Assembly: GCF_000430665.1 (NCBI RefSeq)
Contig: NZ_AUML01000002.1
Span: 124,001-188,000, forward strand
Length of the DNA: 64,000 bases
Direction of reading: 5' to 3'
Origin: Aquimarina muelleri DSM 19832
GTDB lineage: Bacteria; Bacteroidota; Bacteroidia; Flavobacteriales; Flavobacteriaceae
A program made the position numbers and the translations under genes. Shown here one piece after another: positions 35,886 to 40,883 of the stretch (within the stretch, counting starts at the first letter, position 1; the number at the start of each line of letters is the position of its first letter). A model generated the notes under the pieces. It was not told the origin of the DNA and did not search any database. It worked only from the letters and a program-made list of their open reading frames with translations.

Positions 35886-37115
35886 CTATATTTCTAATTG
35901 GCTTATAATATTTTGAGCAATATTGGTATCTAATTTATTCATATCATCTAATACGAAAACAAACCCTATTTTACATTGATGTTTTGGGTCATCAAATTCG
36001 TTTTCAAAATTTCTAAAATTACTACTGGTTTTATTACCAGGATATAATAACATCACCTTTTTTGCTTTCCAAAATCGGGCATACGTATATATCTGTCGCA
36101 TATCCTGTACACTTGTTTTGTCATTAGTTGCGATCTTCCATTTCGTATCTATAACACATACCTGATCTGTTCTTTTATCTGTGATTACTATATCTGGTCG
36201 CAAATAATTAGCTCCTATAAATCCTTTTGTTTGCTGTCCTTCTACCCTTAAATAAGGATACTTTTTATTACAACAGTCTTGCAACTGAACCAATATATAC
36301 TCCTCCCAAAGCTTATTCATATCGAATAACAGAGAAATCATTTTCTCTTGACCTCCTGAAATACTTGGGAAATAGTTAAGGATTATCAGCTTGGCTAGTT
36401 CTAAAGCATTAATATATGGTGCTGTTTTTTGGTTTAATTTAATTTGATCCAGTTGTTTCTTGGTCACTGTTATCCTCTTTACCTCTGGGAAATGTAATAG
36501 TACTCGTTGACAATAATCATATAAAAATGTTCCCTTACTAAATTGTGCTACAATTTCTAATACTTTATACAACACTTGATGTAAGATATGGTTTTTGTCA
36601 TACACCTGATGCGTAGTATAAAAACGTTCTTTATGCACCAGATTATGAAGTACATTACCTGCGAATTCCAGTTTTCCTTTTAACGTTTTTACATTGGCTG
36701 TTTGCTTACGGTATTGCTTAATTAATCCTCTATGTAGTAACTGACTCAACTCATTAAGGAATAACTCAAAATACACATCCAACAAATTAAGGTGGCCCTT
36801 GTTTACATTTGCATATCCTGCACTACTCGCTTTTAACCGTCCACAAGCTTGCAACATTTGTAATAAAACATCTTGCCAGTTACTATCCTCATCATTTTTA
36901 TCTGCTTTGGGGTGTATTTCTATAATAAACCCGTTTACCTGTATGACGCCTACATATTGCTTGAATTTAATACCATTGGCAATCGCATCAAAATAGGTAA
37001 ATTCATGATACTCGTTAAGTTTTAGTAAAGCTCTTAAATGATGCTCTTTAAATCCATTATCTCCAACAAATAGTCGTTGATGCTCATATACAGTTATAGT
37101 TTTTTGATTTTTCAA
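35886..37115 (-). CDS. mcrC: McrC-like subunit of a modification-dependent restriction system
   Basis: 409 residues. The N-terminal half (~1-260) is the McrC beta-rich region that contacts the McrB ring (VYEHQRLFVGDNGF, YVGVIQVNGFIIEIHPK, DVYFELFLNELSQLLHRGL). The C-terminal half holds a PD-(D/E)xK nuclease: LRPDIVITDKRT followed by VCVIDTKWK, with RQIYTYARFWKAKKVMLLYP. It should be the endonuclease partner of the AAA+ protein encoded 63 bases upstream. Type IV restriction of DNA carrying modified cytosine is the known role of the family; the modification recognised here cannot be told. Confidence 0.9.
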   Translation of the reverse strand: MKNQKTITVYEHQRLFVGDNGFKEHHLRALLKLNEYHEFTYFDAIANGIKFKQYVGVIQVNGFIIEIHPKADKNDEDSNWQDVLLQMLQACGRLKASSAGYANVNKGHLNLLDVYFELFLNELSQLLHRGLIKQYRKQTANVKTLKGKLEFAGNVLHNLVHKERFYTTHQVYDKNHILHQVLYKVLEIVAQFSKGTFLYDYCQRVLLHFPEVKRITVTKKQLDQIKLNQKTAPYINALELAKLIILNYFPSISGGQEKMISLLFDMNKLWEEYILVQLQDCCNKKYPYLRVEGQQTKGFIGANYLRPDIVITDKRTDQVCVIDTKWKIATNDKTSVQDMRQIYTYARFWKAKKVMLLYPGNKTSSNFRNFENEFDDPKHQCKIGFVFVLDDMNKLDTNIAQNIISQLEI

Positions 37116-37130
37116 TAAGTTTAATTATGA

Positions 37131-37176
37131 TGTCACACTGAGCTGAAGTGTAATTGACTTTGACCTCAGACTGACA
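37131..37176. repeat. Repeat C hairpin between mcrB and mcrC
   Basis: TGTCACACTGAG ... CTCAGACTGACA: 12-base arms with two mismatches around a 22-base centre that contains CTGAAGTG. Shares its right arm with 34958-34969. It fills most of the 63-base gap of the mcrBC operon and could form a hairpin in the transcript. Confidence 0.65.
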
Positions 37177-37178
37177 TT

Positions 37179-39290
37179 TTAGTTTTTATTAGTAGCTTTA
37201 TTTTTTACGTTTAATAGCGTATCTATTGCTTCTTTTATTTTAAAATTCTCATCTATAGGAATCAATTTATAATACCCCTCATTTAACTGGTCTCTACCTT
37301 GATATTCAAATGTCGGGAATAGATCTTCTTTAGGTTTAATATACCCTACAAACCCTTTTCCTAACACCAACCCAATCTTGCCATAATCTCCATAAAAATA
37401 TTCTTGTAATAAAGGAATCACTTTATCCTTAAAAACAAAGGTTAACTCTTCTAAAGAATGTATATCCATAAAATAGGAATGCCCTATGATATGATCTCTA
37501 TCTATTAGTGTCTCTATTCTTTGGTTAATAGTTTCTAATATTGATTGTAGATTTATCTCAGTAAATTTATAACCATCAAAATATGAAAGCTCGCTTGGGT
37601 TTTTCTCCTTTTTCATATTTTTCCAAATTCCTTTTCTTTTCTCATGAAGTTCTCCTCCAAAGAAATCAAACAGTTCTTTTTCTTTGTTTTTATATTCTGT
37701 ATCCTCCCAATCAACTTTTTCATATTTCCAAAGTAATCTACAATACATAGCAGAAGGGCTTAATAGCTCTGGTCTTGGCATCATTTCTACAAAAGAGAAA
37801 CGTCTGCGTAACGCAGTATCTAATGCTTCTACAGATCGATCTGCGGTGTTCATCGTACCATAAATATCTAAATTTGGAGGTACTGAGAATTCTTTTTTAG
37901 AATATGGCAATTGAACAAACATTTCGTTGGGCTGTCCCTCTCTTTTATCTGGTTCGATGAGTGTAATTAATTCTCCAAAAATCTGAGATACATTTCCCCT
38001 ATTGATCTCATCAATAAAAATTGCGTATCTATTGTTTAGATCTTTTCTCGCATCATTACAGAGTTTTTTAAACACTCCATCTTCAATACGATATTGCAAT
38101 TCAGAAGCAATATCTTTATCAGAGATCATAACAGGTTTAATTCCTTCGATAAAATCTTCATAAGAGAAGGATTGATGAAATGTAGTGAATTCGTATCGCT
38201 TAATTATTTTATCAGGATCTGGATCAAAGTTTTTTACCTTATCTATATAGTCGAATAACTCAGGAACTTGTTCCTTCACTTCTTCTTCTAAGATTTCCCA
38301 ATAAGAGTCTTTCGTTTTACTAAAAATTGCAGGAGATTGTCTCGATCTGACTTTTACATATTCGCAATCTTCAATAGTATGACTTTGCAATTGCGCCCAA
38401 AGAATAGGACTTACAGATTCAGTAGTAGATAACTCTGTTTTTTGCTTGACCCAAAGATGGTTCTTGATGTCTGCTACTTTTGCTTTTTTTAAATCTAGCA
38501 AAGCTATTGCGATTACCTGCCACCAGGAGCATTCTGATATAATGCTCCTAAAAAAGTGATCTTTTGTAATCAATGTTTCTTTAGATGTATATTTAGGAAA
38601 AAAATCTTTTTGTAAACTATATGTTTTCCCTGTTCCGGGAGGGCCGTATAGGATTTGGTTTACAGGTGTTTTTGTGTTAAATGCCTCTTTTTCATCTAAT
38701 GTATCCATACTTATTTTTGTTTCTATATCAGATTTTAATGCTTTAACTTCTGGATACAGTTTCGTCAATTTTATGATTGCTTCTGTACTTTTTCTTATCA
38801 ATTCATCCCAATCGGCAATCTCATCGAAACTATAGCGTATGACAATCTCAGAATTGTAAAAATCTCCGCGATACTTCTCATAGCTCTTTCTTAAGTCTTG
38901 ATGATTTTTAAGTCCAACCGTATCTATCTTTAGATCAAAATGGAAATCATCATCTAAACCAACTGTTATTGCCAACCATTTATCATCCAAATCTGTTTTA
39001 GTCGGATATATTTTTGCCCATAGATATCCATCAAATTTACTGGCTTGACTTGTTGGTTTTTTCCTAATCCTAATAACTCCATCCTTAACCAAGGAGTCTT
39101 TAATAAGATTAGCCCATTCTTCTACTTTTGTATAAGCATTAGACAAAACGTTGTATACATTAGCGAATTCGGGAATAGTTCTATCACACGTCTTTCCTTT
39201 ATATCGATCTAATAATTCAAATTCTTTTTTAGTAAAAAAATTCATTGAAGAGATTTTAACTCTAGAGTCTTCGTTAAATAACATACTCAT
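37179..39290 (-). CDS. mcrB: McrB-like AAA+ GTPase of a modification-dependent restriction system
   Basis: 703 residues. The N-terminal ~200 residues (WANLIKDSLVKDGVIRIRKK, FDGYLWAKIYP, DFHFDLKIDTVGLKNHQDLR) are the specificity part, not the EVE/McrB-N type of E. coli. The AAA+ motor follows: Walker A GPPGTGKT (~214-221), Walker B FIDEINRGN, GTP-signature MNTADRS, arginine finger region ALDTALRRRFSF. A ~140-residue insert between Walker A and the next motif (FFRSIISECSWWQVIAIALL to WAQLQS) is larger than in E. coli McrB and looks like a helical regulatory domain. Drives translocation for McrC. First gene of the pair. Confidence 0.92.
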   Translation of the reverse strand: MSMLFNEDSRVKISSMNFFTKKEFELLDRYKGKTCDRTIPEFANVYNVLSNAYTKVEEWANLIKDSLVKDGVIRIRKKPTSQASKFDGYLWAKIYPTKTDLDDKWLAITVGLDDDFHFDLKIDTVGLKNHQDLRKSYEKYRGDFYNSEIVIRYSFDEIADWDELIRKSTEAIIKLTKLYPEVKALKSDIETKISMDTLDEKEAFNTKTPVNQILYGPPGTGKTYSLQKDFFPKYTSKETLITKDHFFRSIISECSWWQVIAIALLDLKKAKVADIKNHLWVKQKTELSTTESVSPILWAQLQSHTIEDCEYVKVRSRQSPAIFSKTKDSYWEILEEEVKEQVPELFDYIDKVKNFDPDPDKIIKRYEFTTFHQSFSYEDFIEGIKPVMISDKDIASELQYRIEDGVFKKLCNDARKDLNNRYAIFIDEINRGNVSQIFGELITLIEPDKREGQPNEMFVQLPYSKKEFSVPPNLDIYGTMNTADRSVEALDTALRRRFSFVEMMPRPELLSPSAMYCRLLWKYEKVDWEDTEYKNKEKELFDFFGGELHEKRKGIWKNMKKEKNPSELSYFDGYKFTEINLQSILETINQRIETLIDRDHIIGHSYFMDIHSLEELTFVFKDKVIPLLQEYFYGDYGKIGLVLGKGFVGYIKPKEDLFPTFEYQGRDQLNEGYYKLIPIDENFKIKEAIDTLLNVKNKATNKN

Positions 39291-39519: not shown

Positions 39520-39760
39520 CGGTGGACTGATGCTCTCGAAGTTCATCCTACTAATGTTCATCCAACTCAGGGTTCGAGTACCTCACCCTTCGGAGATTGG
39601 TGGACTGCGAGGTTCGATAATTCGCGTGGACTTAGGCTCTCGAAGTTCATCCTACTAGTGTTCATCCAACTCAGGGATTCGAGTACCTCCCCCTTCGGAA
39701 ATTGATCGACTGTGAGGTTCAATAATTCGAGTGGACTGAGGCTCTCGAAGTCCATCCTTT
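39520..39760 (+). repeat. Repeat A tandem block upstream of mcrB (partial + two copies)
   Basis: A partial unit (39520-39555), a full ~104-bp unit (39556-39659) and a second full unit (39660-39760), all in the same direction as the copy at 35692-35791. Units begin GTTCATCCAACTCAGGG and end TCTCGAAGTTCATCCTACTA. Short spurious frames run through it on both strands because the unit length keeps the phase. Each unit has TTCGAG/CTCGAA and GGAT/ATCC complementary ends. The block ends where the 21-bp array begins. Confidence 0.9.
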
Positions 39761-39796
39761 CCTATAAAAACCTGTTCCCTGCCATAAAAATTACAA

Positions 39797-40034
39797 GCGC
39801 GGAATATATTTATGTAAGCGCGGACATGGTTGACCCGGGCGCGGAGTACTTTTGGTCGAGCGCGGAGGTAGAACTCCAAGGCGCGTGGGGTGGTCAATCT
39901 CCCGCGGAGTACTTTTGGTCGCCCGCGGACATGGTTTACCCGAGCGCGGGTATAAATAACCAACCCGCGGGCATGGGAGAGGCGGGCGCGTGGCGCGCCC
40001 CACCTTACCTACTCCGCGGGCTAGTAATAGCAAG
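39797..40034. repeat. GC-rich array with exact 21-bp period (ten units plus one offset unit)
   Basis: The hexamer [G/C]CGCG[G/T] starts at 39797, 39818, 39839, 39860, 39881, 39902, 39923, 39944, 39965 and 39986, always 21 bases apart, and once more at 40014 (28 bases). Between hexamers lie 15-base variable segments. Two recur: ACATGGTTGACCCGG (39824) with ACATGGTTTACCCGA (39929), and AGTACTTTTGGTCGA (39845) with AGTACTTTTGGTCGC (39908), in reversed order. GC content is far above the surroundings. The array starts 6 bases beyond the stop codon of the 232-residue protein gene and ends ~40 bp from repeat A. No stop codons occur in several frames, giving heptad-periodic pseudo-proteins. Nature unknown. 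Confidence 0.9.
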
Positions 40035-40040
40035 GGTTTT

Positions 40041-40739
40041 CTATCTTTTATACCTACTAATATACCCTTTAAACCGTTCTGGATTCTTTCTGAATACATA
40101 TTTACCAGTTTCCTTAATCTCGGTCATGGCTTCTTTAAGGTGTGTATACGCTCTGTCCCTTAGTTCTTTGGCTTTAGAGTTATCCATAGTAGCTCCGTTA
40201 GCTTTGGCCAGTAGTTCTGCCAGATCGTTAGACATTTGTGCAGCAAGATCTAAACGGGTAAGATCATATTTAACTGCTTGTAGCTCGGTGGTATTTGCTT
40301 TACCCAATACACTAATATCCATTAAATCTTGTATCATATCTGCATCTCCTTCGCCATCTGCAATGGCACGTACTCTTGCTAATAAATCAGAACGCCTGCG
40401 AAATGCAAATCGAAAATCAGCCAATAAATCGTTTCTAAATGTATATGCCTTGGGAGCTTCTTCTTTCCACTCTTTGGCAGCTTCCTCTTGGCTATATCGT
40501 TCTTTCATCCAAACGGCTTGTGCATATCGACATGCGCCTGTGCGAATTGGTAGATCTAATACATAAACATTCCAATCTAGACCTGTATTTACTAATTGTT
40601 TTTTATCCTCTTGTGCCCAGATAAAGAGATTTTCAGATTCCTGTAAATAGACATCTATAGGATTTTTTGGTTTTTTCACCTCCTCCTGAGGTATTGCTTC
40701 TAATACGGCTAACTTTACGTCATAATTTTGCTTTGACAT
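40041..40739 (-). CDS. Uncharacterised 232-residue protein, adjacent to the 21-bp array
   Basis: Largely helical, charged, without signal or membrane segment. Visible features: a Pro/Lys-rich N-terminus (EEVKKPKNPIDVYLQESE), a W-rich segment (NLFIWAQEDKKQL, GLDWNVYVLDLP), ACRYAQAVWMKERYSQEEAA, FRFAFRRRSDLLARVRAIAD-GEGDADMIQDL, the long helix ELRDRAYTHLKEAMTEIKETG and the end YVFRKNPERFKGYISRYKR. I believe similar proteins occur in several copies in other Bacteroidota but know no function or domain name. GC content is somewhat higher than in neighbours. It lies next to McrBC and directly before the array (in its own direction of transcription). Confidence 0.8.
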   Translation of the reverse strand: MSKQNYDVKLAVLEAIPQEEVKKPKNPIDVYLQESENLFIWAQEDKKQLVNTGLDWNVYVLDLPIRTGACRYAQAVWMKERYSQEEAAKEWKEEAPKAYTFRNDLLADFRFAFRRRSDLLARVRAIADGEGDADMIQDLMDISVLGKANTTELQAVKYDLTRLDLAAQMSNDLAELLAKANGATMDNSKAKELRDRAYTHLKEAMTEIKETGKYVFRKNPERFKGYISRYKR

Positions 40740-40883
40740 ACTATATTATTGTTATAAATTAATAATCTACAATATTACAGCACAGAAGTTTCGTTTTTCG
40801 ACACTAGGAAAAATAATTTATGAGAATGCTACTACTTTTTCTTGTTTGAAAACAAAGATGAAGCACTTGTATCAAAATGTCTA

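Follow-up and report, generated by a model that had tools for sequence, protein, structure and literature searches.

A short motif repeated every 20-21 bp follows most copies of a rare gene family of Bacteroidota, and arrays of the same kind also lie apart from the gene. The array described here falls within positions 39797-40034 of the window, i.e. the complete analysed stretch of 64,000 nucleotides from Aquimarina muelleri DSM 19832, and lies about 20 bp 3' of the stop of its partner gene. It is proposed that gene and arrays constitute a two-part system, in which a helical DNA-binding protein would bind its cognate phased arrays and the arrays would be mobilised and disperse. The probability of this reading is put at roughly 0.47, i.e. 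slightly below even. Held with somewhat less assurance is the wider claim that the system may represent an undescribed class, in which a non-HUH all-helical protein would read dyad-centred two-turn arrays, copy or anchor them chromosome-wide, and re-tune the motif with each gene copy, with several private sets per genome. Among the open-access full-text matches listed, such a gene-plus-array system is undescribed.

Architecture of the phased array

An earlier note on this DNA had described a hexamer that recurs ten times at a strict 21-base period and once more after a 28-base step, and this was borne out. The pattern SCGCGK-N15-SCGCGK yields nine overlapping matches on the + strand, which join ten hexamers from 39797 to 39986 in exact 21-bp steps, and one match on the - strand, belonging to a palindromic pair; it is absent from 100 dinucleotide-preserving shuffles of the sequence. 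The eleventh hexamer follows at 40014 after a 28-bp step. CGCG is invariant in the ten units (10/10 in four columns), the commonest base of the other 17 columns averages 53%, and 12 of the 25 CGCG sites of the 64-kb window fall in 39790-40025. Two 15-base segments were also said to occur twice each. Their recurrence stood, their identity did not: the copies at 39845 and 39908 differ at 1 of 15 positions, and those at 39824 and 39929 at 2 of 15. The related idea of modules drawn from a small repertoire holds insofar as this array and the second CGCG array of the genome both show recurring related modules, which is as expected of an old tandem duplication under selection for CGCG.

The array consists of two arms, to neither of which a strand is assigned. 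The long arm (39797-39990) comprises ten CGCG sites at exact 21-bp steps (sites 39798-39987), and the short, gene-proximal arm (39994-40019) comprises two sites, 39994 and 40015, 21 bp apart. Both meet at a likewise unstranded dyad centre, CGCG-TGG-CGCG (39987-39997), where the array reverses, which explains the step of 21+7 bases. The same kind of centre occurs in other arrays, many of which are two opposed runs joined at a short palindrome. Among 60 gene-linked arrays with a chain score >= 5.6 (without L137), 30 contain an inverted motif pair of 5 bp or more, with a centre of 1 or 3 nt in 17 of the 30. Such a pair is also present in 11 of 21 further arrays (20 gene-less ones plus the gene-linked one of Draconibacterium orientale, without L257), with a centre of this size in 9 of the 11. 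Round the dyad of the window array, folding of the transcript from the gene's strand predicts a stem (39976-40009, - strand) shortly past the stop; its position is terminator-like, without a clean T-run. The whole 261-nt fold after the window gene has a z of -3.23, and Rfam gave no match at gathering score in the window.

A coding function of the array was considered and rejected: an ORF on the + strand (39712-40566) spans the array, but it is antisense to the conserved gene. The earlier note had foreseen two objections to its view of the array, a position inside a conserved protein gene, and a period that breaks down with no comparable array elsewhere. The array lies outside the conserved coding gene, and comparable arrays were found in other genomes. 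The partner gene, the dyad and the gene-less arrays go beyond what that note had described. A GC-rich 105-bp tandem repeat (39522-39758, 2.3 copies, GTGGACTGAGGCTCTCGAAGTCCA type) adjoins the array; similar sequence adjoins the second CGCG array of the genome and other loci, and it perhaps constitutes a separate REP-like family. A McrBC-type restriction pair (35886-39290; Pfam McrBC, AAA_5) is located on the side of the array away from the partner gene.

The partner gene family and its protein

The partner gene (40041-40739, - strand) encodes a protein of 232 aa, whose family has no convincing relative in Pfam, NCBIfam, PHROG or PADLOC and none among PDB sequences. The weak matches comprise Pfam DUF7893, hit by 15 of 36 members (best E 0.001; the window protein scores 14.8 bits against a cut-off of 27), a single PHROG hit to one member (E 3e-4), and five sub-threshold NCBIfam rows. 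Nop, ParB, Rep, and toxin families gave no match among the family members in the Pfam/family libraries. The AlphaFold2 model of the protein is all-helical (pLDDT 93, pTM 0.69), and Foldseek finds nothing at E <= 0.001 for it in PDB or BFVD, so that the fold gives no independent pointer to DNA binding. The VIA structural rows reach a top Z of 8.2 (an S23-family four-helix protein, a Nop-like chain) and fall below the Z of about 13 that VIA gives helical bundles; rows to Nop-like helical chains (Z 6.5-8.2) are in a range that unrelated helical bundles also reach. The sequence, inspected by eye, suggests an internal duplication. A HEPN ribonuclease was considered on account of R194-x5-H200, which we take to resemble the HEPN motif, but was rejected, H200 being Tyr in several copies. 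The C-terminal tail is basic and conserved. Its charge amounts to 2 to 7 in 58 array-bearing copies, and two copies without a motif array (L154 and L155) have altered tails with charges of -1 and 0; a coupling of tail and array is not claimed, as the charge is 2 to 5 in 13 further copies whose chains are weak or missing.

Ahead of the gene, the stretch 40767-40805 (- strand) resembles, by eye, the palindrome AGTTYC-N7-GAAACT together with a promoter-like sequence. It misses the strict palindrome pattern and was likened to the sequence before other Aquimarina copies; the strict pattern is present in 14 of 37 Aquimarina-type copies and in 16 of 79 copies overall. Solitary copies of this promoter/palindrome element were seen away from the gene at L120 (2117-2247) and L124 (2647-2817).

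The family is rare and scattered through Bacteroidota. Matches to the protein occur in 29 of 66 Aquimarina genomes (up to four each, some partial) and in 1 of 395 genomes of a phylum sample, namely the A. muelleri genome itself. The locus set used for the counts below is the best 80 of 104 loci, which are related to each other, so that the counts are not independent. Besides Aquimarina, these best 80 loci include Fulvivirga, Microscilla, Draconibacterium, Prolixibacter, Sunxiuqinia, Mariniphaga, Marivirga, Galbibacter, and Joostella as well as MAGs, one labelled Deltaproteobacteria and one KSB1. A viral or plasmid origin was rejected, as no relative was found in the three sets searched (viral contigs, phages, and plasmids).

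The array is the feature that accompanies the gene; no gene family is a neighbour of the copies at more than 7 of 80 loci. Within 420 bp downstream of the stop, lag 20/21 outranks the other lags from 10 to 30 in 64 of 78 copies (14 of 78 lack a leading 20-21-bp period), while it leads in 9/78 controls upstream, 12/71 far downstream, and 4/80 within the gene. The mean lag profile downstream of the gene has its top peak at 21, followed by 42, 63, 41, and 84. The period claim rests on this lag analysis, since chain finding permitted steps of 20-22 and 40-43 bp only; the per-locus mean motif spacing of 20.3-21.2 bp lies within these permitted steps. Units were aligned on the motif, purine-side up, which makes the motif GC-rich by construction; this does not apply to the AT-rich segment that is centred 12-15 bp past the motif, i.e. 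one helical turn on (mean of 59 loci). At L137 and L080, a 7-bp microsatellite (TTGATGG) is found downstream of the gene at the expected place of the array. Y1_Tnp (RAYT-like) genes follow the array or replace most of it at L153 (5129-5680) and L133 (4871-5440), yet a REP/RAYT partnership was rejected, as no such family is recurrent among the neighbours.

The motifs vary among copies and include CGCG, GCGGGG, CCGGGA, GCAGGA, ACAGGA, GATGGG, GGTGA, and others. Motif similarity correlates with protein identity (Mantel r 0.30, 0/500 permutations, 59 loci); it is flat at 40-70% protein identity (median 0.39-0.41), increases only above 70%, and ranges from 0.17 to 0.61 in 16 pairs of paralogues from the same genome. 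The sequence between the motifs is inherited as well and often has its own consensus. Judged from these comparisons, the motif is inherited along with the gene and drifts fast. Because the similarity is flat below 70% identity, joint inheritance is shown rather than recognition; that the protein recognises the motif is supposed.

Gene-less arrays and possible movement

The A. muelleri genome harbors ten gene-less arrays in addition to three gene-linked ones. The gene-less arrays carry CGCG once (the second CGCG array, on contig C27), CCGGGA at seven places, and CCCCGC at two, so that the motif of every one of the three gene copies also occurs in arrays elsewhere in the genome. No gene remnant was detected within the ca. 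5 kb taken round each of the ten, and the 17 gene-less arrays checked for remnants gave one weak match (E 6e-5), at L258 from another genome. The arms of this gene-less array (around 2440-2560 of L258) are long and perfectly inverted, and one looks hairpin-copied from the other. The ten gene-less arrays of A. muelleri are located between long ORFs, with small ORFs overlapping some of them (simple ORF caller), and their orientation relative to the flanking ORFs, determined by reading, is mixed, some lying between divergent or antisense ORFs.

Searches of the 66 Aquimarina genomes for two motif types link the arrays to the gene. S-GGGA arrays occur in 14 genomes, one of them being a 7-bp microsatellite, and the reversed-pattern control in 1/66. 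The remaining 13 genomes are all among the 29 with gene or remnant (Fisher p 3e-6), and in some of these 13 the match consists of the array beside the gene. Matches away from the gene are present in 7 genomes, all bearing the gene or a remnant (p 0.002; p 0.013 without the two least certain genomes, G010 and G022). In G022, a perfect 21-bp tandem repeat stands at the end of contig C66 and the start of C155, possibly a recently expanded array at which the assembly broke. CGCG arrays occur in 7/66 genomes; one hit (G068) was judged to be due to chance, five of the other six genomes have the gene, and in G029 a CGCG array is present with no gene detected. The reversed CGCG control matches 7/66 genomes, six of them array-bearing, and is not independent, as GCGC occurs inside the arrays. 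In a family sample, fourfold CGCG is found in 2/397 genomes, namely that of A. muelleri and G461, the latter with a minisatellite. Outside the genus, threefold CAGGR yields 34 matches on the D. orientale chromosome (L301, L303-L307) against 1 in the control. These form five arrays, one gene-linked and at least four gene-less, all of which were read as runs in opposite orientation on either side of a centre such as TCCTGC-AGC-GCAGGA. Three of the five are situated no more than 0.35 Mb from dnaA (identified by Pfam Bac_DnaA), a number too small to judge.

Arrays and gene-array units occupy different places in relatives. Several pairs of copies with proteins 90-97% identical have no flanking ORFs in common; the common stretch extends from 60-145 bp upstream (360 bp in one pair) through the gene to the end of the array, and comprises little else. 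L121 and L124, for example, share both flanks, and vertical inheritance is common. One gene-less array of A. muelleri sits between a gene of the phosphoglucomutase family, presumably glmM, and a lipid A acyltransferase gene. At this site, a test for six motifs found an array in 0/29 other Aquimarina loci (the comparison covers loci from 30 of 64 matching genomes), with the two genes 44-158 bp apart in 15 loci, 418-1413 bp apart in 7, and the second gene outside the examined flank in 7. This absence is most simply explained by a gain of the array without the gene. Neither transposon ends nor target duplications were seen in eight loci, and the boundaries are not sharp.

Proposed system, rival readings and known systems

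A spacing of 20-21 bp corresponds to two turns of B-DNA and places every site on one face of the helix. In the proposed system, the first part would be an all-helical protein of about 230 aa, the second a cognate array with a motif of 4-6 bp every 20.3-21.2 bp or so, often in two opposed runs at a dyad. The opposed arms and the dyad suggest that the protein, probably a dimer, seats on the centre and fills successive sites cooperatively on one DNA face, outward in both directions. In several Aquimarina copies, the first units double as a terminator-like hairpin. The arrays would spread as dependent elements, and each gene copy with its arrays would form a private set; no nuclease or recombinase signature that would account for the spread was seen in the protein. 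Of the functions the earlier note had offered, phased protein binding on one helical face appears best supported, while the array may also be a mobilised or recombining element, given the gene-less arrays and the one position that is empty in relatives.

That the array is transcribed and acts as an RNA, either as a type III antitoxin RNA or as TIGR-Tas-like small guide RNAs, is regarded as quite unlikely. The combination of a gene with adjoining repeats that are uniform within each locus but differ from locus to locus resembles TIGR (PMC12045711), and the alternating double units of 41-42 bp in some arrays as well as the weak helical resemblance of the protein to Nop-type chains point in the same direction. 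So does the finding that the first 250 nt after the stop fold slightly better than expected in sense than in antisense (79 loci, p 0.001). This bias, however, stems from the initial 110 nt (sense z -3.41, antisense z -2.27; p 2e-6 for the difference), whereas the next 150 nt, i.e. the array body, have neither structure nor strand bias (z -0.41 sense, -0.47 antisense; p 0.65), the split being made for 63 of the 80 loci (chain score >= 5). RNA-level selection is therefore apparently confined to the stop-proximal part, and the array body behaves like DNA or unstructured RNA; the structured RNA considered in the earlier note is reduced to the stop-proximal hairpin. In the stems, G-T mismatches outnumber A-C ones by 106 to 78 (60 stems with score >= 9, of 79), a difference that is not relied on. 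An RNA function is further disfavoured by the inherited sequence between the motifs, which with its frequent own consensus is unlike spacers, by the mixed orientation of the gene-less arrays to their flanking ORFs, by the missing match to Nop or nuclease families, and by a terminator-like hairpin with a T-run within 260 nt of the stop in 50/80 loci, before, within or after the array. These hairpins could mean that the array merely terminates transcription of the gene or acts as an element at the 3' end of its mRNA: the stop-proximal hairpin of several Aquimarina copies consists of the first array units with a T-run behind them, and in some other lineages a terminator-like hairpin stands ahead of the array. 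Such an explanation is very improbable, as the arrays continue beyond the hairpin without RNA structure and also exist without the gene, some of them between divergent or antisense ORFs.

ParB-parS and MatP-matS are models for proteins that read sites of the host chromosome. The same recognition of array DNA by the protein might serve such host sites, e.g. in anchoring, segregation or nucleoid organisation, instead of a selfish element. Several arrays scattered through each genome, phased at two turns and symmetric about a dyad, would suit a spreading DNA-binding protein, and 3/5 D. orientale arrays lie <= 0.35 Mb from dnaA. This origin bias, however, concerns five arrays only, the gene is patchy (29/66 Aquimarina genomes, 1/395 in the phylum sample) with at most four matches per genome, the motifs differ, and the single array position that was compared is not conserved; host sites are considered unlikely. 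An ordinary GC-rich minisatellite, fixed by slippage and located beside the gene by chance, is hardly credible. Units were recently duplicated in some arrays (63-bp triplets in L030, 42-bp doublets in L152), and an unrelated-looking 21-bp minisatellite exists in G461, but the window array keeps the motif constant and not the whole unit, and chance is contradicted by a period that recurs beside distant homologues with other motifs and is far rarer in the controls.

If the two-part system of protein and phased arrays is true, it adds a protein family that has no known relatives and a new type of intergenic element in bacteria. The different motifs on the gene copies of one genome would then be a natural experiment in the change of DNA-binding specificity, and the phased array gives the clear prediction of a protein lying along one face of the DNA. 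Should the protein spread the arrays, this would be mobilisation without any recognised transposase.

Several known systems combine short repeated elements with a dedicated protein or with differing sequences between them. CRISPR arrays contain short constant elements separated by differing sequences; in contrast, the present motif is 4-6 bp long with about 15-17 bp in between, the arms are mirror images, and no neighbouring family accompanies the arrays beyond the frequency given above. Type III toxin-antitoxin systems consist of a protein and a tandem-repeat element with private specificity, whereas the array described here is located 3' of the gene, its body is devoid of RNA structure, and no toxin family matches. 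In ParB-parS, iterons, and cooperative site arrays, sites with helical-turn spacing lie beside the gene of their presumed binder. This likeness holds here too, but neither ParB nor Rep families match, the motif varies by copy, and a recurrent neighbour is again missing (none in more than 7/80 loci).

TIGR-Tas systems comprise a single gene and an adjoining short-repeat array that is constant within and variable between loci (PMC12045711). The TIGR units given there measure 36 nt (alternating repeats, 9-nt spacers), whereas the present period is 20-21 or 41-42 bp; moreover, the sequence between the motifs is not spacer-like, Pfam gives no Nop match, and the present system has a dyad and dispersed gene-less arrays, with no hit in viral contigs or phages. 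REPtrons have one gene type per element family, elements both beside the gene and in intergenic regions, and several private families per genome (PMC6006769). The present system differs in that no HUH/Y1 domain (Y1_Tnp) appears in the Pfam matches of 36 members, although the same library detects Y1_Tnp in two neighbouring RAYT-like proteins, and in that its element is a 20-21-bp phased array, whereas a REP is a short hairpin with a GT[AG]G foot. Both share the logic of one gene, private dispersed elements, and several sets per genome; in A. muelleri, gene-less arrays exist for all three local motif types, 'cognate' being meant by motif only.
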